Source: an uncultured Chloroflexota bacterium | Lineage (GTDB): Bacteria; Chloroflexota; UBA11872; UBA12225 | Direction: 5' to 3' | Length of the DNA stretch: 64,000 bases | Assembly: GCA_902805635.1 (NCBI GenBank) | Contig: CADCTC010000170.1 | Coordinates: 8,354 to 72,353, forward strand | Part shown: positions 33,644 to 51,320 of the stretch, piece after piece | How the letters are laid out: every line of letters begins with the position of its first letter | How positions within the stretch are numbered: position 1 is the stretch's first letter | Program-made: the position numbers and the translations under genes | Notes under the pieces: generated by a model | Seen by the model: the letters and a program-made list of their open reading frames with translations, nothing else | Told to the model about the DNA's origin: nothing | The model's database searches: none

Positions 33644-34960
33644 TCAGGGTGTCGGCGTCTGGTGCAGTGCGTCAGGCCTTGGGAGTGGCCGCGGCGCACT
33701 GGCTACGGCAGCCAAGGGTTCCACCAACTGCTCAGTCGAACGAGCGCCGCCGGACCGCGTTGCGCCAAGTAGCTCACGATACAGGCCAAGATAGGCGGCG
33801 GCCATGCGCTCGTGCGTGTAGCGCGCCCGGACTCGGGCGTGCGCCAGCGTGGCGTAGTGCGTCACCGTTGGGCGGTCGCCGGACAGGCGCTCGAGCAGCG
33901 CCGCCAGCGCCCCCGGCGTGTTGCGCTCGAAGTAGAGCGCCGCCGGACCCCAGACCTCGCGATACGAAGGGATGTCATTGGCCACCACCGCACACCCCGC
34001 CAGCGCCGCCTCGGCCGGTCCGAGCCCAAACGGGTCGTAGCTGGCCGGAGCGATGCACAGCGCCGCCCGGCCGAGCAGGCTGGCCAGCGCGTGTTTGTCC
34101 AGGAAACCGCTGTAACTCAGGCCCGGTGCCGCGGGCATGGCGGATGGCGGGCGGCCGGGCTCGACCACCTCGCCCGCCACCTCCAGGCGCCAGGGACGGC
34201 GGCACAGCCGCAACGCCTCAGCCACCAGCTTGACGTTCTTGGCTTCGTCCCACGCACGCCCCGCCACCGTCACGGCCAGGTCGTCCTGGCGACCGACCTC
34301 TTGCGTTTCATCGTCCGCATTGACCGAGTCCACGGGCAGCGCGACGGCGTTGTGCACCACGTGCGGCGTGCGATCGAGCTGGTAGTGGCGCGTGATCTCG
34401 CCGGCCAGGAAACCGGACGGGCACACCACGGCGTCCGCCTGCTGCAGCGCGTGCCGCGCCAGGTCCAGCTGCCAGCGCAAGTAGTCCGGCAGAGTGCGCG
34501 GCGCCTCACCACCGTCCTTCACCCACGTCCACCACGTCACCAGGTCGCTGTGCACTCCCAGCAGCACCGGCGGCCGGCGCCCACCTTGGCCGCCACCTGC
34601 GCCACTCGTCCGGCCCAGCGCCTCGCCCACGCCGGCCAGCCCCAATTGGTTCACGTGTACCAGGTCCGCGCGCCATTCGGCTGCCAGCGCGCCGGCAGCG
34701 GCTCGGTGGCGCTCCAGCCAGTCACGCCCGCCCTCCATCCACTCCAGGCGCCCATCCAGCTGGCGCAGCGCCAGGCCCGGCACGGCGCGTGCGGCGGCCA
34801 CCTGCGACTCCGCCGGAGGCGGCCCCACCACGGCCAGCAGCACCTTCGCCTGGCCAGAGTGCCCCAGCGCCTGCGCGAGCGCCAGGCACGAGTCCCAGAC
34901 GCCGCCCACAGCGTCAGTCACCAGCAGCACGCGCAGCGGGTCAGACACGCGATCACGCAT
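33644..34960 (-). CDS. Family 4 (GT-B) glycosyltransferase
   Basis: A 438-residue retaining glycosyltransferase of the GT4 type. The N-terminal domain starts LRVLLVTDAVGGVWDSCLAL; the C-terminal donor site includes LAVTVAGRAWDEAKNVKLV, the ASYDPFGLGPAEAALAGCAVV motif (E-x7-E class) and DIPSYREVWG. I chose ATG 34960, preceded by GGTGG; it overlaps the upstream gene's stop by eight bases. A longer frame to 34999 exists. The C-terminal 30 residues are Pro/Arg-rich. It is part of the reverse polysaccharide operon. Confidence 0.92.
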   Translation of the reverse strand: MRDRVSDPLRVLLVTDAVGGVWDSCLALAQALGHSGQAKVLLAVVGPPPAESQVAAARAVPGLALRQLDGRLEWMEGGRDWLERHRAAAGALAAEWRADLVHVNQLGLAGVGEALGRTSGAGGGQGGRRPPVLLGVHSDLVTWWTWVKDGGEAPRTLPDYLRWQLDLARHALQQADAVVCPSGFLAGEITRHYQLDRTPHVVHNAVALPVDSVNADDETQEVGRQDDLAVTVAGRAWDEAKNVKLVAEALRLCRRPWRLEVAGEVVEPGRPPSAMPAAPGLSYSGFLDKHALASLLGRAALCIAPASYDPFGLGPAEAALAGCAVVANDIPSYREVWGPAALYFERNTPGALAALLERLSGDRPTVTHYATLAHARVRARYTHERMAAAYLGLYRELLGATRSGGARSTEQLVEPLAAVASAPRPLPRPDALHQTPTP

Positions 34961-35837
34961 AGCGGCGGGCCACCTGCTGGCAAAAGTAGGCGAACTCACC
35001 GGGATCGATTGGCGGGCTGGTGTGGTCCGCGCGCAAGCCGCGGCTGGGCGGCGTGAAGCACAGCGTCGCCGTCACCTCGAATGGATCGAGCGCGCGCATC
35101 ATCTGGTCGAAGAACTCCCAGCCACCCGGCACGCACGAGTCCCCCCAGCTCAGGCCCGTGCGCAGTGAGCGCACGCCCAGCCGCTTGAGCCATGAAACGG
35201 TCCGGTCCAGCTGCTCGTAGTCGCCCAGGTGGATCCACTGCACCAACCCCCACTCCGGAGGAAAGTGGCGCAGCGCCAGCTTGGGCGTGCCGTCCGCGGT
35301 GAGCAGGCCGAAGTAGAAGTGCCGGAAGTACGACGATCCCTCGGCCTGCTTGTGGCGCGTCGTCGCGTCACGTGTGTGTGGCAGATCGAAGAGCGAGTAC
35401 CAGAAGATCTCGTCCACCAGCGGCGGGAGCAGCTGCATCGTCTTTTGCAGCCCGATCTCCTGGACCTCCTCGCACCCAAAGCTGCTCGTCCCCACCTCGG
35501 TGGCCCAGATGGGCAGGTCGGTCACCGCTCGAATCTCGGCGACGCGCTCCGGCCACTGGTCGATCGGCCACAGGTGCCAGTCGAACGGAAAGCCGTGGAT
35601 CGCCACCGCATCCACGTGCTGCTTTAAGTCGTGGCCGTTGACGAGACGGTCCATGAAATTCGCGTCGATCGGCGCGATCCCACCCAGCACCACCGGGAGC
35701 CCCGGCGCCTCGCGGTGCAGCTCGGCGGCGCTCCAGCGCACCATCTGCGCGTAGATGGACCACTCGGGATCGAGCGTGAAGTCCCAATGGGAGAGGTTAT
35801 TCGGCTCGTTCCAGAGCATGACGGCACGCAGCGTCAC
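34953..35837 (-). CDS. Glycosidase-like TIM barrel, apparently circularly permuted (copy 1)
   Basis: A 294-residue protein with clan GH-A features of the beta-xylosidase (GH39-like) type. The acid/base site is already at the N-terminus (VMLWNEPNN, Glu11), the nucleophile region follows (WATEVGTSSFG, Glu114), then WYSLFDLP and GLLTADGTPKLALRHF, normally near the C-terminus. After that comes what is normally the beginning of the barrel: LGVRSLRTGLSWGDS, then DPFEVTATLCFTPPSRG and FAYFCQQVARRYA. The strand order is therefore 4-8 then 1-3. The GTG start overlaps the upstream stop (GTGA), fixing the N-terminus. A paralogue of identical length is at 38924-39808. No signal peptide. Confidence 0.82.
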   Translation of the reverse strand: MTLRAVMLWNEPNNLSHWDFTLDPEWSIYAQMVRWSAAELHREAPGLPVVLGGIAPIDANFMDRLVNGHDLKQHVDAVAIHGFPFDWHLWPIDQWPERVAEIRAVTDLPIWATEVGTSSFGCEEVQEIGLQKTMQLLPPLVDEIFWYSLFDLPHTRDATTRHKQAEGSSYFRHFYFGLLTADGTPKLALRHFPPEWGLVQWIHLGDYEQLDRTVSWLKRLGVRSLRTGLSWGDSCVPGGWEFFDQMMRALDPFEVTATLCFTPPSRGLRADHTSPPIDPGEFAYFCQQVARRYA

Positions 35838-38923: not shown

Positions 38924-39808
38924 ATGATTGAGGCGGTCAAGCTTTGGAACGAGCCGAATAACCGGTCGCACTGGGACTTCACGCTCGACCCGGAGTGGAC
39001 CGCCTTCTCGCGTTTGGTGACGCTGGCGGCGGACGCCGTGGCGGCCGAGCGGCCGGGGCTGACCCGCGTGCTGGGCGGCATCTCGCCCATCGACCCGGAC
39101 TTCCTGGGCACGCTCCAGCGTCAAGGCGTGCTGGACCACGTAGACGCGGTGGCGGTGCACGGGTTTCCAATGGACTGGAACCCGTGGTCGGTACACGAGT
39201 GGCCGGATCGCCTGGCGGAGGTGCGCGCCGTCACCGGCCTGCCGCTCTGGGTCACCGAGGTGGGCGTGTCCAGCTTCGGCTGCGAGGAGGTGCAGGCGTT
39301 CGGCGTGCGGCGCACGGCGGAGCTGCTGGGCGGCCAGGCCGAGCGCATCCACTGGTACAGCCTGTTCGACCTGCCCCGCGACTGGGGCGCCGAATCGCTG
39401 GACCCCGACTCGGAGGGAGAAGCCTACTTCCGCCACTTCCACATGGGGCTGCTGCGCGCCGGCGGCGCGCCCAAGCAGGCGCTGCGCGTCTTCGCGGAGC
39501 ACGTCCCCCCGCTGGGCATCTGCCAGTGGTTCCATATGGACGACGCGCGCCTGGACGACGCGGTGCGCCTGCTGCGCGACCTGGGGGTGCGGTACCTGCG
39601 CACCGGCCTCTCCTGGGCGGACAGCTACCGGCCCGACGCGCTGGCGTGGTTCGACCGCCAGATGGCGGCGCTGGAGCCGTTCGACCTGACGGTGACCTTC
39701 TGCTTCACCCCCGCCGCGCAGGGCCTGACGCCGCACCACACCAGCCCACCGCGCGAGCCCGAAGCCTTCGCCGACTTCTGCGCCGCAATGGTGCGTCGCT
39801 ACGCGTAA
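38924..39808 (+). CDS. Glycosidase-like TIM barrel, apparently circularly permuted (copy 2)
   Basis: A 294-residue paralogue of the product at 34953-35837, with the same inverted domain order. Catalytic Glu10 (VKLWNEPNN) and Glu112 (WVTEVGVSSFG) come first; VDAVAVHGFPMDW and RIHWYSLFDLP form later strands; then LGVRYLRTGLSWADSYRPDA, FDLTVTFCFTPAAQG and FADFCAAMVRRYA supply the strands that begin a normal GH39-like barrel. The end of the chain would join directly to its beginning. GAGGG precedes the ATG. The two copies agree over their whole length, so the order is not an assembly fault. Hydrolase or transglycosylase activity is not established. Confidence 0.82.
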   Translation: MIEAVKLWNEPNNRSHWDFTLDPEWTAFSRLVTLAADAVAAERPGLTRVLGGISPIDPDFLGTLQRQGVLDHVDAVAVHGFPMDWNPWSVHEWPDRLAEVRAVTGLPLWVTEVGVSSFGCEEVQAFGVRRTAELLGGQAERIHWYSLFDLPRDWGAESLDPDSEGEAYFRHFHMGLLRAGGAPKQALRVFAEHVPPLGICQWFHMDDARLDDAVRLLRDLGVRYLRTGLSWADSYRPDALAWFDRQMAALEPFDLTVTFCFTPAAQGLTPHHTSPPREPEAFADFCAAMVRRYA

Positions 39809-39900
39809 CTCGGTGGCGTGCTTCTTGCTTGTGTGGCGCGCCCGGACCTGAAGGGCTCCGGGAGCAGCCATCACAAGAGGGGGAGCGAAAACAACGCTCT

Positions 39901-42024
39901 ATGGCGATCGACATCGGGGTCGACACGAAACGACCGTTCTCAAGGTCTGGCGGCACGCAGGAACTCCCAGAAGCGCCAGCAGCGCAGCCCGCCCCACTGC
40001 TCTCCGCCCAGGCACAGGCGCTGGGGTTCTCAACGCTCGATGCGCTGAAGCGCGAGGTGCTCCGCCAGCGCGCCACCTGGTGGCAAGGGGAGCGGTTCCA
40101 CTGTCCACTGTGTGACGAGGACTACGCGGACGCGGCGCCGGCAGCGGACCACGTCGTGCGCCTGCAGCACCCCGTGCTGCGCGTGGACGGCGTCCGTCCA
40201 CGTACCGCGGCGCCGTGTTGGGCGGACGCGGAGCTCGACTACGTGCGCGCGCTGCGCGGTCCCAACCTCCACGCGCGCACCCCGGTCCTGAAGGTGACGT
40301 TGATGGAGCGCAAAGCCGACGGAGTGGCGGCGCGACCGGTCACTTCTCGCTTCACCACCCGTCTGGCCACCGCGCTGCCCGGATTGGCTGGCGATCACGG
40401 TATCCGCTCGCTGCAACGGCGGCTGGGCAGCCGCAGCGGCGGCGCCCCCATCGCGCTGGCGGCGCGGTTGGCGGCCCAGGAGCTGCTGCGCCTGGCGGGC
40501 CACGAACCGGAGATCGCCAAAATGCTGCCCGACCCCGATCCGCAGACCTGCGGGTTCCTCCTGGGTTACACCGACGAGGCGCTGGGACGTTTGGCGGTAG
40601 AGGCAGCGGCGCAGCTGACGCTCGCCGCCTGGCGCGGCACGGCCTACGACATTGCCGGTGATCTCGACCGGCTGCGCGCGCTGTCGACAGCGCCTTCCCC
40701 TAACGTACGCCGGATGGCGGTGGCCGCGCCGGGGCGACCCGGTCGTACCGCCGCTGTTGCTGCGCCCGGCCGTGGGCGGGCCGGCGCACGCCCTGGAGCG
40801 GTGCTGGCGCAGATTCCGGTGATCGCGGTCACGGGCACAAACGGCAAGACCACCACCACGCGTCTGATCGCCCACATGTACGAGACCGCGGATCACGTGG
40901 TGGGGCTGACTTCCACAGAGGGCACCTACATCGACGGCGAGCGCGTCATGAAAGGAGACTGCTCCGGACCCAAGAGCGCGCGTACCATCCTCTCTGACGA
41001 ACGGGTGGAGGCAGCCGTGCTTGAAACGGCGCGCGGCGGCATCTTGCGCGAGGGGCTGGCGTTCGAGAGCTGCACGGTGGGAGTGGTGACCAACGTCACG
41101 GCGGACCACCTGGGCATAGGGGGCGTGCATACGCTGGCGGACCTGGCGCGGGTGAAGCAGGTGGTGGTGCAGGCGGTACGTCCCGACGGCGCGGCTGTGC
41201 TGAATGCGGACGATCCGCTGGTGGCCGGCATGGTCGCCGCCACCGAGGCGCGCACCGTCTTTTTCTCCACCAGCGCCCGCAACGCCGTGGTCACGGAGCA
41301 CCTCTCACGGGGTGGCGCGGCGGTGCTGGCGCAGGACGGCGAGATCCTGCTGGCAGCCGGCAACCTGCGCACGCGCGTCGCCCGGCTGGAAGCGGTGCCG
41401 TTCACCGCGGGTGGGCGCATCCTCTTCCAGGTCAAGAACGCGCTGGCGGCCACCGCCGCCGCCTGGGCAGCGGGCCTGGGCCTGCGCGCTATTGCCCGCG
41501 CGTTGGCCACGTTCCAGACCGACGCCGCCACGGTGCCAGGCCGCTTCAACGTGGGAGAGTACGCCGGCGTGGAGGTGGTGCTCGATTACGCGCACAACCC
41601 GGGCGCCCTGGAGGCACTGGGTGCTGCGGTGCAGGCGCTGGCGCCGCGCCGCACCATCCTGGCGATCGGCCTGCCGGGCGACCGGCGCGATGACGACCTG
41701 CACGCCAGCATGGCTGCCACCCTGGGTTGGGTGGACGAGTACGTGCTGTGCGACCACGGTGACCGGCGCGGCCGGACGGAAGGCGAAGTGCCGCGCTTGC
41801 TGCAGCGCGTGGTCCCCAGCAGCACGCCCTCGGTCTGTGCCACCAGCCAGGCGGACGGCATCTCGCTCGCGTGGGAGCGCGCCCGTCCCGGCGATCGCAT
41901 CGTCGTCATCGTCTACGACGCCGAGACAGCCTTGGCCCAGGTGCAGGCGCTGGCGCACGCGGCGCCGTTCGGTGGACCACAGCACGAAAACACCTCAGGC
42001 AACGGATCGCCACGCTCAGCGTAG
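39901..42024 (+). CDS. Cyanophycin-synthetase-like Mur ligase lacking ATP-grasp domain
   Basis: A 707-residue protein. Residues 1-60 are variable. A C2H2-like motif follows (Cys68, Cys71, His84, His90; C-x2-C-x12-H-x5-H). Residues about 112-262 match the N-terminal domain of cyanophycin synthetase (VRALRGPNLHAR, ATALPGL, LAAQELLRLAG, GRLAVEAAAQLTLAAW). The central ATP-grasp domain is absent. From 306 a Mur ligase follows directly: P-loop VTGTNGKTTTTR, then EGTYIDGERVMKGDCSGPKS, LETARGGILREGL and VTNVTADHLGI, with a C-terminal domain (DYAHNPGALEALG). It should ligate an amino acid to a carboxylate using ATP, but the product is unknown. The ribosome binding site is distant from the ATG, so the start is uncertain. 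Confidence 0.85.
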   Translation: MAIDIGVDTKRPFSRSGGTQELPEAPAAQPAPLLSAQAQALGFSTLDALKREVLRQRATWWQGERFHCPLCDEDYADAAPAADHVVRLQHPVLRVDGVRPRTAAPCWADAELDYVRALRGPNLHARTPVLKVTLMERKADGVAARPVTSRFTTRLATALPGLAGDHGIRSLQRRLGSRSGGAPIALAARLAAQELLRLAGHEPEIAKMLPDPDPQTCGFLLGYTDEALGRLAVEAAAQLTLAAWRGTAYDIAGDLDRLRALSTAPSPNVRRMAVAAPGRPGRTAAVAAPGRGRAGARPGAVLAQIPVIAVTGTNGKTTTTRLIAHMYETADHVVGLTSTEGTYIDGERVMKGDCSGPKSARTILSDERVEAAVLETARGGILREGLAFESCTVGVVTNVTADHLGIGGVHTLADLARVKQVVVQAVRPDGAAVLNADDPLVAGMVAATEARTVFFSTSARNAVVTEHLSRGGAAVLAQDGEILLAAGNLRTRVARLEAVPFTAGGRILFQVKNALAATAAAWAAGLGLRAIARALATFQTDAATVPGRFNVGEYAGVEVVLDYAHNPGALEALGAAVQALAPRRTILAIGLPGDRRDDDLHASMAATLGWVDEYVLCDHGDRRGRTEGEVPRLLQRVVPSSTPSVCATSQADGISLAWERARPGDRIVVIVYDAETALAQVQALAHAAPFGGPQHENTSGNGSPRSA

Positions 42025-43912: not shown

Positions 43913-44479
43913 CTAATAACGGTCTCCGCCGCGGCCGTACCCACCGCCACCGCCGCCGCCAGAACGCCCACCGGAGCGTCCGCCGCCACCACCACCGCCA
44001 TACCCACCGCCGCCACCGCCGTAGCCACCACCACCGCCGGAGCGTCCACCGCCGCCACCACCGTACCCGCCACCACCACCACCATAGCTGCCACCACCGC
44101 CGGAACGCCCGCCACTGCTACCACCGCCAACGCGGCTGAAGCAATCGCTGCAGTACACCGGGCGGTCGCCACGGGGCTGGAAAGGCACCTGGGTCTCCTT
44201 GCCGCACGACGCGCAGGTCACGTCGAACATCTGGCGCGTGCCGCCACCGTACCCACCACCGCCACCGGAGCGTCCGCCGCCGTAGCCACCGCCGCCACCA
44301 CCGGAGCTGTAGGCTCCGCCGGAGTCGCCGCGCTCGGCGCGGCGCGCTGTGCGGCAGTTGGGGCAACGCTTGGGCTCATTGGTAAACCCGCGCTCGGCGT
44401 GGTACGCCTGGTCCTCGGCGCTGAAGGTAAACGGCTGCCCGCAGTCGGCACACGTCAGCTGGCGATCTTGAAAGCTCAT
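43913..44479 (-). CDS. CxxC zinc-ribbon protein with Gly-rich repeats
   Basis: A 188-residue protein with a zinc-ribbon N-terminus (TCADCGQPFTFSAEDQAYHA, then RCPNCRTARR), a second Cys module in the middle (VTCASCGKETQVPF and VYCSDCFSR), and long Gly/Ser/Tyr/Arg repeats (GGYGGG, GGRSGG). The C-terminal repeats look like RGG/GYG-type RNA-binding, phase-separation-prone sequence. This zinc-binding family is common and uncharacterised. It lies downstream of a cold-shock protein gene, with an intrinsic terminator between, so it may be expressed by readthrough and share an RNA-related role. Confidence 0.85.
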   Translation of the reverse strand: MSFQDRQLTCADCGQPFTFSAEDQAYHAERGFTNEPKRCPNCRTARRAERGDSGGAYSSGGGGGGYGGGRSGGGGGYGGGTRQMFDVTCASCGKETQVPFQPRGDRPVYCSDCFSRVGGGSSGGRSGGGGSYGGGGGGYGGGGGGRSGGGGGYGGGGGGYGGGGGGGRSGGRSGGGGGGGYGRGGDRY

Positions 44480-47996: not shown

Positions 47997-49643
47997 ATGC
48001 GTGGAAAACGCCCCTCGATGGGGCAAACGCTGGCCGGGCTCACGGCCGCCGTCACTCTGCCAGCCACCGCGCTCGCGATGGCTCTGGCGCCATCGGCCCC
48101 CATGGTCGATGCGTCGAGCCACCGCGAAGCACCGATGATTGCAGATGACCCGGCGGCGGATGGTACAGACGTCTATGCCTTTACCAGCCCGGAGAACAAC
48201 GGCACTGTCACGCTGATCTACAACGTGTGGCCGTTCGAGGATCCCTTCGCGGGCCCGAACTTCTACCGGTTTGACGAGAACGTCCAGTACTCGATCAAAG
48301 TGGATAACAACGGAGACAACAATCAGGACATCTCGTTCGACTTCCGGTTCCGTACGGAGATCCGCAACCCGAGGACGTTCCTGTACAACACCGGTCCCGT
48401 CACGTCCATCGACGATCCTGACCTGAACGTGCGCCAGTTCTACACGGTTACCCGCGTAGACGGCAGCGGCAGCCGGGAGATGATCAAGGACGCGCCAGTC
48501 CCTCCGGTGAACATCGGTCCCAAGTCCACCCCTAACTACCCCGAGGTGGCGGCGCAGGGTATCCGGCCAATCGCGAACGGGGGCCAGGTCTTTGCTGGCC
48601 AGCGCGCCGACCCGTTCTTCGTGGACATCGCGTCCATCGTAGACTTGCTGACCATTCGCAAGCTGCCCGGCAACATGGGTGGCGGCGTGAATGCGCTCAA
48701 CGGCAAGAACGTCCAGACCATCGCGCTGCAAGTGCCTATCACCCAGCTTTCGGGTGACGGTCAGGCGGTCACTGGCCTGGACTCCCCTAACGCCGTGATC
48801 GGCGTGTGGGCTACCTCCAGCCGCCAGAAGACTACCGTGCTGAGCCCCGGCTCAATGCAGTCCTCTGGCGAGTGGGTGCAGATCTCCCGCCTGGGCAACC
48901 CACTGGTGAACGAGGTCGTCATCCCCATTGGGACCAAGGACGCCTTCAACGCCATCAGTCCTAGCCAGGACGTGGCGGCCGGCGCACTGCCGCTGGTGCA
49001 GGACCCGGAGCCGGCGCGTCTGCTCAAGGCGCTCTACAACATCCAGGTGCCACCCGCACCGCGTGACGACCTGGTGGCGGTCTTCTTGACCGGCATTCCT
49101 GGCTCGGTACTCGGCCTGCCCGGCGCCACGGCGCCCATGAACGTGCCTGCGGGCGCCTCGACGGCCAGCGAGATGCTGCGCCTGAACATGGCGACCCCGT
49201 CCACGCCCATCGGGCAGCTCAAGTCACGCCTCGGCGCGCTGGGCGGCGACATCGCCGGCTTCCCCAACGGCCGCCGGCTCGAAGACGACGTGGTGGACAT
49301 CGCCCTCCAGGCGGTAGCCGGCGCGACGTACCCGCTGACCCACCCTGAGTTCACCCCCGACCCGCTGGCATCCCAGCTGGGAGACGGTGTGGACGTTGGG
49401 GACGCACCGCTGATGGGCGCCTTCCCGTACGTCGCTATCCCGCATCGTGGGTTCGATATCTCGCAGGCTGGACGTGGCGCGTTCATGTTCATCCGCTGCC
49501 GCTCGAGCGTGTACTTCCTGAACGGCGACAACTCTATCGGAGACATGGTGTCCGATCCTGCCCAGATTGGCACCTCGCCCATCTTCCAGCAGAGCGCCAC
49601 GGTATCCGCCGAAACCATCACCGCACTGTGCGGTGGCAAGTAG
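47997..49643 (+). CDS. DUF4331 exported protein (tandem copy 1)
   Basis: A 548-residue exported protein of the DUF4331 family. A signal sequence (hydrophobic about residues 12-32) ends before SSHREAPMIADDPAADGTDV, the conserved family opening. Further landmarks are NVWPFEDPFAGPNFYRFDEN, VDNNGDNNQDISFDFRFRTE, FLYNTGPVTS and FPYVAIPHRGFD. Acidic Asn/Asp-Gly loops suggest metal binding. AGAAGGAGG gives a very strong ribosome binding site, so high expression is likely. The next gene is a close duplicate 27 bases on. The family's function is not known; the context suggests extracytoplasmic metal handling. Confidence 0.88.
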   Translation: MRGKRPSMGQTLAGLTAAVTLPATALAMALAPSAPMVDASSHREAPMIADDPAADGTDVYAFTSPENNGTVTLIYNVWPFEDPFAGPNFYRFDENVQYSIKVDNNGDNNQDISFDFRFRTEIRNPRTFLYNTGPVTSIDDPDLNVRQFYTVTRVDGSGSREMIKDAPVPPVNIGPKSTPNYPEVAAQGIRPIANGGQVFAGQRADPFFVDIASIVDLLTIRKLPGNMGGGVNALNGKNVQTIALQVPITQLSGDGQAVTGLDSPNAVIGVWATSSRQKTTVLSPGSMQSSGEWVQISRLGNPLVNEVVIPIGTKDAFNAISPSQDVAAGALPLVQDPEPARLLKALYNIQVPPAPRDDLVAVFLTGIPGSVLGLPGATAPMNVPAGASTASEMLRLNMATPSTPIGQLKSRLGALGGDIAGFPNGRRLEDDVVDIALQAVAGATYPLTHPEFTPDPLASQLGDGVDVGDAPLMGAFPYVAIPHRGFDISQAGRGAFMFIRCRSSVYFLNGDNSIGDMVSDPAQIGTSPIFQQSATVSAETITALCGGK

Positions 49644-49670
49644 CCCAATGACTCAAGAATGGAGAAGCGC

Positions 49671-51320
49671 ATGACCAGACTGCACGTCGGTCGGGCACTT
49701 GCCGGCATTAGTGCCGCGATTGCCCTACCCGCGGCGGCCTTCTCGCTGGCGCTGGCGCCCACGGCCCCCCTGGCCGACGCGTCCAGCCACCGAGAGGCGC
49801 CCATGATCGCACACGATCCGTCCGCAGACGGCACGGACCTGTACGCCTTCCCAAGCCCTGGGAACCCCGGGACGATTACCTTCGTCTACAACGTCTGGCC
49901 GTTAGAAGACCCGTTCGCGGGACCAAACTTCTTCAAGTTTGACGACAACGTCTTGTATGCCGTGAACGTCGATAACAACGGCGACAACAAGCCGGACCTC
50001 AGCTACGAGTTCCGGTTCCGCACCGAGTACCGCAACCCCAAGACGTTCCTCTACAACACTGGCCCGGTCACGTCGCTGGACGACGAGGACCTCAATCTGC
50101 GGCAGTTCTACACCGTCACGCGGGTGCAGACGAACAACGGCCAGCGCGCGGAGCTCGCTAAGGACGTCCCCGTCCCACCGGTCCACATCGGACCGAAGTC
50201 CACCCCCAACTACTCGGCGCTCGCCAACGCGGCCGTCAAGCCGCTGGCTCGCGGTGGCCAGGTATTCGCCGGCCAGCGCGCCGATCCTTTCTTCGTGGAC
50301 CTGAGCTCGCTGTTTGACCTGCTGACCATCCGCAAGCTGCCCGGCAACGCCGGCGGCGGCGTGGACAGTCTGGAGGGCAAGAACGTTCAGTCGATCGTCT
50401 TCCAGGTTCCTGTCAAGGAGCTGACTGCGGACGCCGTGGACGTGGCCGGGCTGGGCTCACCCAACGCCGTCATCGGCACATGGGCGACCTCCAGCCGCCA
50501 GAAGACCCGCGTGCTTGGCGCCGGCACTAGCAGTGCCTCCGGCGAGTGGGTGCAGGTTTCCCGTCTGGGCAACCCGCTGGTGAACGAGGTCATCATCCCG
50601 CTGGGCCTGAAGGACGCCTTCAACGGCCTCAAGCCCGAGGACGACGTCAAGGCCGGCGCACTGCCGCTGGTGCAGCGTCCCGAGCCCGAGCGGCTGCTCA
50701 ACCAGCTGTACGGTCTGAAGACGCCCGGCAAGGACCGTTCTGACCTGGTCGCCATCTTCCTCACCGGCGTCCCCGGCTCAGTCCTCGGGCTGCCCGGCGC
50801 CACCGCTCCCATGAACGTCCCCGCGGGCTCCGCGACCGCCAGCGAGATGCTTCGTCTCAACCTGGCCACCCCCGCAACGCCCATCGGGCAGCTCAAGTCA
50901 CGCCTGGGCGTGGTCGGCGGCGACATCGCCGGCTTCCCCAATGGCCGCCGGCTCGAGGATGACGTGGTGGACATCGCCCTCCAGGCAGTGGCCGGCGTCA
51001 CCTTCCCGCTAGTGGACAAGACCTTCACGCCCGATCCGCTGGCCGGCCAGCTGGGCGATGGGGTAAACGCTCCCAGTTCGCCGCTGCTCACCGGGTTCCC
51101 GTTCGTGGGCATCCCGCACCGCGGGTTCGACTACAACACGGCCGCCACGGAAGAGCTCATCCGCTGCGGCCAGGGCGGTATCTTCCGCCTGAACCCCGAT
51201 CAGACGCTGAACACGCAGATCACCAATCCGGCGGATATCGGTGGCATGTCCATTCTGACTGCCAGCGCCAGCTTCCCCGAGGAAGCCATCCGCCGCATCT
51301 GCGGCACCCAGTTCAAGTAG
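49671..51320 (+). CDS. DUF4331 exported protein (tandem copy 2)
   Basis: A 549-residue duplicate of the preceding gene, similar over its full length (ASSHREAPMIAHDPSADGTD, NVWPLEDPFAGPNFFKFDDN, RKLPGNAGGGVDSLEGKNVQ, FPFVGIPHRGFDYN). It has its own signal sequence. I prefer ATG 49671 over 49659 because GGAG lies six bases before it. Both copies keep an Asp/Asn-rich VDNNGDN loop. A strong hairpin terminator follows 26 bases after the stop, so the two DUF4331 genes form a separable transcript from the transporter genes downstream. Confidence 0.88.
   Translation: MTRLHVGRALAGISAAIALPAAAFSLALAPTAPLADASSHREAPMIAHDPSADGTDLYAFPSPGNPGTITFVYNVWPLEDPFAGPNFFKFDDNVLYAVNVDNNGDNKPDLSYEFRFRTEYRNPKTFLYNTGPVTSLDDEDLNLRQFYTVTRVQTNNGQRAELAKDVPVPPVHIGPKSTPNYSALANAAVKPLARGGQVFAGQRADPFFVDLSSLFDLLTIRKLPGNAGGGVDSLEGKNVQSIVFQVPVKELTADAVDVAGLGSPNAVIGTWATSSRQKTRVLGAGTSSASGEWVQVSRLGNPLVNEVIIPLGLKDAFNGLKPEDDVKAGALPLVQRPEPERLLNQLYGLKTPGKDRSDLVAIFLTGVPGSVLGLPGATAPMNVPAGSATASEMLRLNLATPATPIGQLKSRLGVVGGDIAGFPNGRRLEDDVVDIALQAVAGVTFPLVDKTFTPDPLAGQLGDGVNAPSSPLLTGFPFVGIPHRGFDYNTAATEELIRCGQGGIFRLNPDQTLNTQITNPADIGGMSILTASASFPEEAIRRICGTQFK

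Follow-up and report, generated by a model that had tools for sequence, protein, structure and literature searches.

A cyanophycin synthetase paralogue with an N-terminal C2H2-like finger and without an ATP-grasp domain in an uncultured Chloroflexota bacterium

The DNA analyzed here (the window) is a stretch of 64,000 nucleotides from an uncultured Chloroflexota bacterium (GenBank assembly GCA_902805635.1, contig CADCTC010000170.1, positions 8,354 to 72,353, forward strand). It carries a gene for a 707-residue protein related to cyanophycin synthetase (CphA1), in which a C2H2-like finger is followed by a CphA1-type N-terminal (N) domain, a short junction and a Mur ligase (M) domain, while the ATP-grasp (G) domain is missing. 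Cyanophycin, a nitrogen-storage polymer, has been described as the product of one enzyme with two catalytic centers, and a protein with only one of them is therefore of interest for its possible role next to CphA1. The protein is known from one metagenome-assembled genome, which is 89% complete with 5.36% contamination.

Domain architecture of the 707-residue protein

The reading frame can be extended upstream to position 38995 only with overlap of another gene, and it is supported by the GC content at codon positions, which over the three domain segments (finger, N, M) is 0.84–0.88 at the third and 0.48–0.56 at the second position. Pfam matches in the protein are Mur_ligase_M and Mur_ligase_C, and the curated libraries show Mur ligase domains only. 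The cyanophycin synthetase model TIGR02068 is matched chiefly at positions 477–860, corresponding to the M domain (E 5e-137), and the score of 458 bits lies below the cut-off of 850 and hence below the threshold for full-length CphA1. With the MurE model TIGR01085, 116 bits were obtained against a cut-off of 257; the ligase is CphA-type instead.

Across 38 full CphA1 M domains, 56 alignment columns show conservation of 94% or more, and the window protein keeps 51 of them. Retained positions include the P-loop GTNGKT, the Mg-binding glutamate E375, the pair D402-H403, and K419, located at the position of the conserved lysine that is carbamylated in MurE-type ligases. Corresponding residues bind ATP and Mg or serve M activity in TeCphA1 (PMC9427784) and SuCphA1 (PMC9262961), and mutation of the equivalent D585-H586 pair inactivates the M domain of SuCphA1 (PMC9262961). 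Judged by these residues, the Mur ligase center is complete and apparently active.

The N domain was tested with a profile of 17 CphA1 N domains from Chloroflexota, which matched residues 115–239 with E 3.6e-6 (best of 200 shuffled sequences, E 2.7), and a search of the genome aligned residues 99–264 with the N domain of its own CphA1 at 32–33% identity (E 3.7e-9). In AlphaFold, the finger and the N domain were modeled separately. The first 15 PDB matches of the N-domain model (predicted local distance difference test, pLDDT, 80) were all cyanophycin synthetases, a structural match that is not fully independent because the alignment used for modeling was built of CphA1 sequences. The similarity to CphA1 is real. 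By homology, the protein thus has an N-terminal domain of the type with which CphA1 binds polymer (PMC9262961). The Cx19HxxEH metallopeptidase motif, which enables many CphA1s to produce their own primers, is present in the CphA1 of the same genome and absent from the N domain of the window protein; this motif occurs in 83% of CphA1s and is typical rather than defining (PMC9262961). At an M-domain identity of 60% to its own CphA1, the N domain shows 33% identity, while pairs of CphA1s with 55–60% identity in M show 45–55% in N. The N domain has hence diverged more than expected and the M domain is conserved, which fits a retained ligase with relieved N-domain duty.

No ATP-grasp domain was found in the 707-residue protein with Pfam, nor with a G-domain profile from Chloroflexota CphA1s searched with filters off, and the same profile gave no match in six frames of the window. 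In the whole genome, its sole strong match (E 2e-171) falls within the full-length CphA1; the remaining matches (E 8e-13 or worse) are located in other proteins. A hidden or separate CphA-type ATP-grasp domain was therefore rejected as far as the protein, the window and the 89% complete genome extend. At the place of the G domain of about 300 residues, a low-complexity junction of 38 residues connects N and M. Its start, APSPNVRRMAVAAPGR, aligns with the first G-domain residues, GPSTxAIVxAA, and the G domain thus appears to have been deleted in frame as a block from the ancestor of this gene. Lacking it, the protein would be without the center that adds aspartate to the backbone, and synthesis of (beta-Asp-Arg)n from Asp, Arg and ATP, the reaction of CphA1, is not expected of it.

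The finger motif C68-x2-C71-x12-H84-x5-H90 is invariant in ten related sequences, which share 16 invariant positions including all four candidate metal ligands. The family signature LSxxAxxxG...W...G...HC-x2-C-x12-H-x5-HPVLRxD is present in the window protein. In the AlphaFold model (pLDDT 89), a pair of helices precedes a finger of the beta-beta-alpha type; a Foldseek search with it gave no significant PDB match, and the low-ranking ones were mostly C2H2 fingers. Two standalone homologues with 63% and 35% identity are encoded in the same genome, and standalone finger proteins also occur in six of eight other genomes of the same bacterial family. Among 41 genomes of the class, the finger family was matched in seven, all within this bacterial family, and in none of the rest. 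As the finger exists elsewhere as a family of small standalone proteins, the window protein represents a gene fusion. The same combination of finger, N and M domains was not found in 61 relatives, the 41 genomes of the class and plasmids, nor among the matches listed in a scan of genome contigs; among the genomes searched, the fusion was seen in this one only.

The original prediction, made from the sequence alone, had described an N domain joined directly to a Mur ligase within 707 residues, a C-x2-C-x12-H-x5-H finger ahead of the ligase, and the loss of ATP-grasp and thereby of one ligase center. All of this was confirmed at the level of domain searches and models. Residues 112–300, where a concealed ATP-grasp domain had been considered, contain the N domain instead, and the suspicion that the N-domain similarity might be spurious did not hold, as profile, identity to the genome's own CphA1 and model agree. 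Features of the locus are summarized in Table 1.

Table 1. Features of the window gene and its upstream region.
Feature	Position	Strand	Residues	Basis
Whole gene: finger, N domain and Mur ligase; CphA1 paralogue without ATP-grasp	39901..42024	+	1–707	open reading frame, Pfam, TIGR02068, genome search, codon GC
Weak ribosome binding site candidate, purine-rich GAGGGGGAG	39877..39885	+		read from sequence; 15 nt 5′ of ATG, longer than usual
C2H2-like finger domain (C68, C71, H84, H90), homologous to small standalone proteins	39991..40191	+	31–97	homologue searches, alignment, model
CphA1 N domain without Cx19HxxEH metallopeptidase motif	40234..40692	+	~112–264	profile, genome search, model; motif after PMC9262961
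Junction, low-complexity, at place of G domain; begins APSPNVRRMAVAAPGR	40693..40806	+	265–302	profile search, alignment
Cyanophycin-type Mur ligase (M) domain	40807..41970	+	303–690	Pfam, TIGR02068, profile, alignment
P-loop GTNGKTTTT	40834..40860	+	312–320	alignment; role by analogy to TeCphA1 Lys499/Thr500 (PMC9427784)
Asp402-His403, equivalent to SuCphA1 D585-H586	41104..41109	+	402–403	alignment; PMC9262961
Lys419, conserved-lysine position of Mur ligases	41155..41157	+	419	alignment

Origin from CphA1 and ATP-grasp-less relatives

The genome also encodes a full-length CphA1 of 904 residues on a different contig (1097 bits with TIGR02068). An isoaspartyl dipeptidase gene (TIGR01975), cut by the contig end, adjoins it, and a cyanophycinase scoring over its cut-off is also encoded in the genome. 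With these three proteins present, cyanophycin is expected in this bacterium. The contig with the cyanophycinase gene (C161; L192:1-1112) opens, ahead of that gene, with the C-terminal part of another cyanophycinase-like protein, and the two are probably tandem copies.

In two M-domain trees, the window protein and this CphA1 are sisters with support of 100/100, and the branch of the window protein (0.33) compares with 0.41 for CphA1. Sequence comparison and trees together identify the window gene as a paralogue of the genome's own cphA1, from which ATP-grasp was deleted in frame and to which a standalone finger was fused at the N terminus. By its domain content, it is neither a CphA1, as defined by the presence of ATP-grasp, nor a CphA2. 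With CphA1 (TIGR02068; SuCphA1, 7lg5; TeCphA1, 7wac), it shares the N fold, the M ligase domain and the catalytic residues, the own CphA1 being the nearest relative, but it differs by the absence of ATP-grasp and thus of backbone elongation, by the missing N-domain protease motif and by the added finger. The dipeptide-polymerizing CphA2 (8fxi, 7ta5) is likewise a cyanophycin synthetase relative with one working center and also lacks the N-domain motif (PMC9262961); the loss is reversed, however, because the single active site of CphA2 is ATP-grasp, whereas the window protein keeps the M center. MurE-type UDP-MurNAc-tripeptide synthetases have the Mur ligase fold and ATP chemistry in common with it. 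Taken by its domains, the window protein probably works like the M half of CphA1.

ATP-grasp-less relatives of CphA1 are not confined to this locus. A CphA1-type match was obtained in 49 of 400 Chloroflexota genomes, and at least 36 of the 48 CphA1-bearing genomes other than this one also contain, beside CphA1, a short protein with an N-like segment and an M domain but without ATP-grasp (in one of the 36, G263, it was seen at the neighboring locus L054). Since two candidates per genome were scored, these co-occurrence counts are lower bounds, and domain content was checked on a sample. No short form without a CphA1 match was found in the 400 genomes. In Chloroflexota, the short genes are often convergent to cphA1 and adjoin cyanophycinase. 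Genes for the same form follow or face cphA1 in Lysobacter, Acidobacteriota, Plesiocystis, Nocardioides, Terrabacter and a Micrococcales genome. The gene order in Shinella zoogloeoides is cyanophycinase (cphB), cphA1 and a "Mur ligase family protein", which is also the only RefSeq annotation of the short forms. Loci with a short N-like and Mur ligase protein were observed in several phyla (L038-L040, L073-L091, L123, L127, L138, L140, L146, L147, L154, L186). A description of the N+M form was not found in the open literature, the subscription literature being mostly not searchable, and we provisionally regard it as undescribed. These widespread proteins are possibly weightier than the window gene itself.

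Like the window protein, the short Mur ligases (Shinella WP_160788060.1; L039, L123, L146) combine an N-like segment with a CphA-type M domain. They differ in forming a separate, older clade, with all short forms placed in the tree separated from the CphA1s by a branch with 100/99 support, in their own motifs such as EAGDWTGFGGA, in the absence of a finger and in being usually adjacent to cphA1. Membership of the window protein in this clade was rejected because of its grouping with its own CphA1 in both trees. A canonical short partner is missing from its genome, as far as the TIGR02068 search with two scored candidates extends. A further case was found in Duganella sp. sic0402 (L151:5723-7825, minus strand), where a 701-residue paralogue with an intact M domain is convergent to cphA1 and sister of that neighboring CphA1 in the tree. 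Its ATP-grasp is degraded and not cleanly removed, it has no finger, and it adjoins cphA1. As it arose separately, ATP-grasp function was lost with retention of M more than once.

Proposed function and alternative explanations

The retained CphA1-type M columns point to the usual CphA1 M reaction, the addition of arginine to an aspartate side chain. We therefore favor, with roughly even confidence, a reading in which this CphA1 paralogue would act, in support of CphA1, as an ATP-dependent ligase that couples arginine (or lysine) to the side chains of aspartates in cyanophycin-type acceptors. In a single step, ATP would phosphorylate the side-chain carboxylate of an aspartate in cyanophycin or a cyanophycin-like acceptor, which the surfaces of N and M would hold in place, and the amino acid would then be joined to it by the M domain. 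Because the protein cannot extend an aspartate backbone, its acceptors would have to come from CphA1 or elsewhere; its likeliest jobs would be the filling of bare aspartates on CphA1 products or the production of short beta-Asp-Arg pieces. As a guess, the finger may position or regulate the ligase. The gene may also occupy the place of the canonical short partner absent from its genome. The recurrence of independent N+M enzymes with CphA1 in many genomes supports this reading. Several points weigh against it. The window gene does not lie beside cyanophycin genes, its neighbors being genes for an alpha/beta hydrolase, a dehydrogenase and a glycosyltransferase. Structures of CphA1 show the M core packed against the G cores (PMC9427784), which puts folding and assembly of N+M alone in question, as the G core supports the CphA1 tetramer. 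In addition, amino-acid specificity is not readable from alignments, and the single metagenome-assembled genome has no second genome of the genus for comparison.

The original prediction had suggested instead that one amino acid is added to another carboxylate. Such a change of role in an active ligase, with a target unrelated to cyanophycin and perhaps delivered by the finger, is possible but rather unlikely. The location outside any cyanophycin cluster and the drift of the N domain beyond expectation agree with it, as does the occurrence of the finger family elsewhere near UxaA- and LarA-like genes (named by reading translations) and not near cyanophycin genes. It is disfavored by the preservation of nearly all CphA1-type M residues (the 51 of 56 columns) and by the full cyanophycin pathway of the genome. 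Not foreseen in that prediction were the intact CphA1 with degradation enzymes in the same genome, the paralogy, the finger as a separate fused family, and the widespread ATP-grasp-less partners.

A role as subunit or regulator, in which the protein binds CphA1 or cyanophycin granules via N and M and tunes synthesis without catalysis of its own, is improbable. Polymer binding by CphA1 N domains (PMC9262961), the N-terminal fusion of a finger and the repeated presence of N+M proteins alongside CphA1 would suit it, but a non-catalytic partner would not be expected to keep the P-loop and the catalytic residues in full. Still less credit is given to a decaying duplicate without function. The catalytic domain and the N-domain motif are indeed lost and the N domain has diverged, yet 707 uninterrupted codons with a coding pattern at third positions, an M-domain branch that does not exceed the one leading to the own CphA1 in length and the preserved key residues speak for a maintained gene. 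That the protein is half of a split synthetase with the ATP-grasp half encoded elsewhere is very doubtful: N+M is the exact remainder if G is separate, but the only CphA-type G domain of the genome resides in the full CphA1 and none is present in the window, although the absence of a separate G gene is not final because of the genome completeness. That a finger gene and a truncated cphA were joined by an error of assembly or binning, conceivable for a single metagenome-assembled genome with some contamination, is hardly credible, since no near-identical copy of a segment exists elsewhere in the genome (best identity 63% for the finger and 57% for M), so that a joining of repeats is unlikely, and the finger is found in this bacterial family only, as expected for correct binning.

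On the broader scale, we tentatively suggest, with less confidence than for the ligase activity favored above, that N+M enzymes may form an unrecognized accessory step that alters or repairs cyanophycin side chains and has at least two clean origins and one partial one. The window gene would then be a convergent, finger-fused replacement in a genome without canonical partner. If true, a recurrent partner with the side-chain-adding center alone would mean that polymer composition is edited by a second enzyme, with relevance for bacterial nitrogen storage and the production of tailored polymers. The window gene indicates that an ATP-grasp-less partner can arise straight from CphA1 by loss of ATP-grasp, and because it arose directly from the own CphA1, the question can be tested with one protein pair from one genome.

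Finger loci and neighboring genes

In several genomes of the bacterial family, genes for two types of small finger proteins, with the endings HPVLRMD and HPVLRWDWY, run in opposite directions at a distance of about 2.7 kb (L037:4101-6979, L041:4409-7368, L042:1244-4244). At L037, the two lie on either side of a LarA/DUF2088-like gene, and UxaA-like genes are located close by (names assigned by eye from translations).

Within the window, the genes at 34953-35837 (minus strand) and 38924-39808 (plus strand) encode related proteins with LWNEPNN.SHWDFTLDPEW near the start of both and without a Pfam match; they are located near glycosyltransferase and dehydrogenase genes. The gene at 43913-44479 (minus strand), near a cold-shock-like gene, encodes a small protein in which two treble-clef zinc domains (zf_Tbcl, zf_Tbcl_2) are combined with a long glycine-rich tail. 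Also, two similar genes are arranged in tandem at 47997-49643 and 49659-51320, the first encoding a DUF4331 protein (E 1e-142) whose N-terminal pattern recurs in the product of the second.
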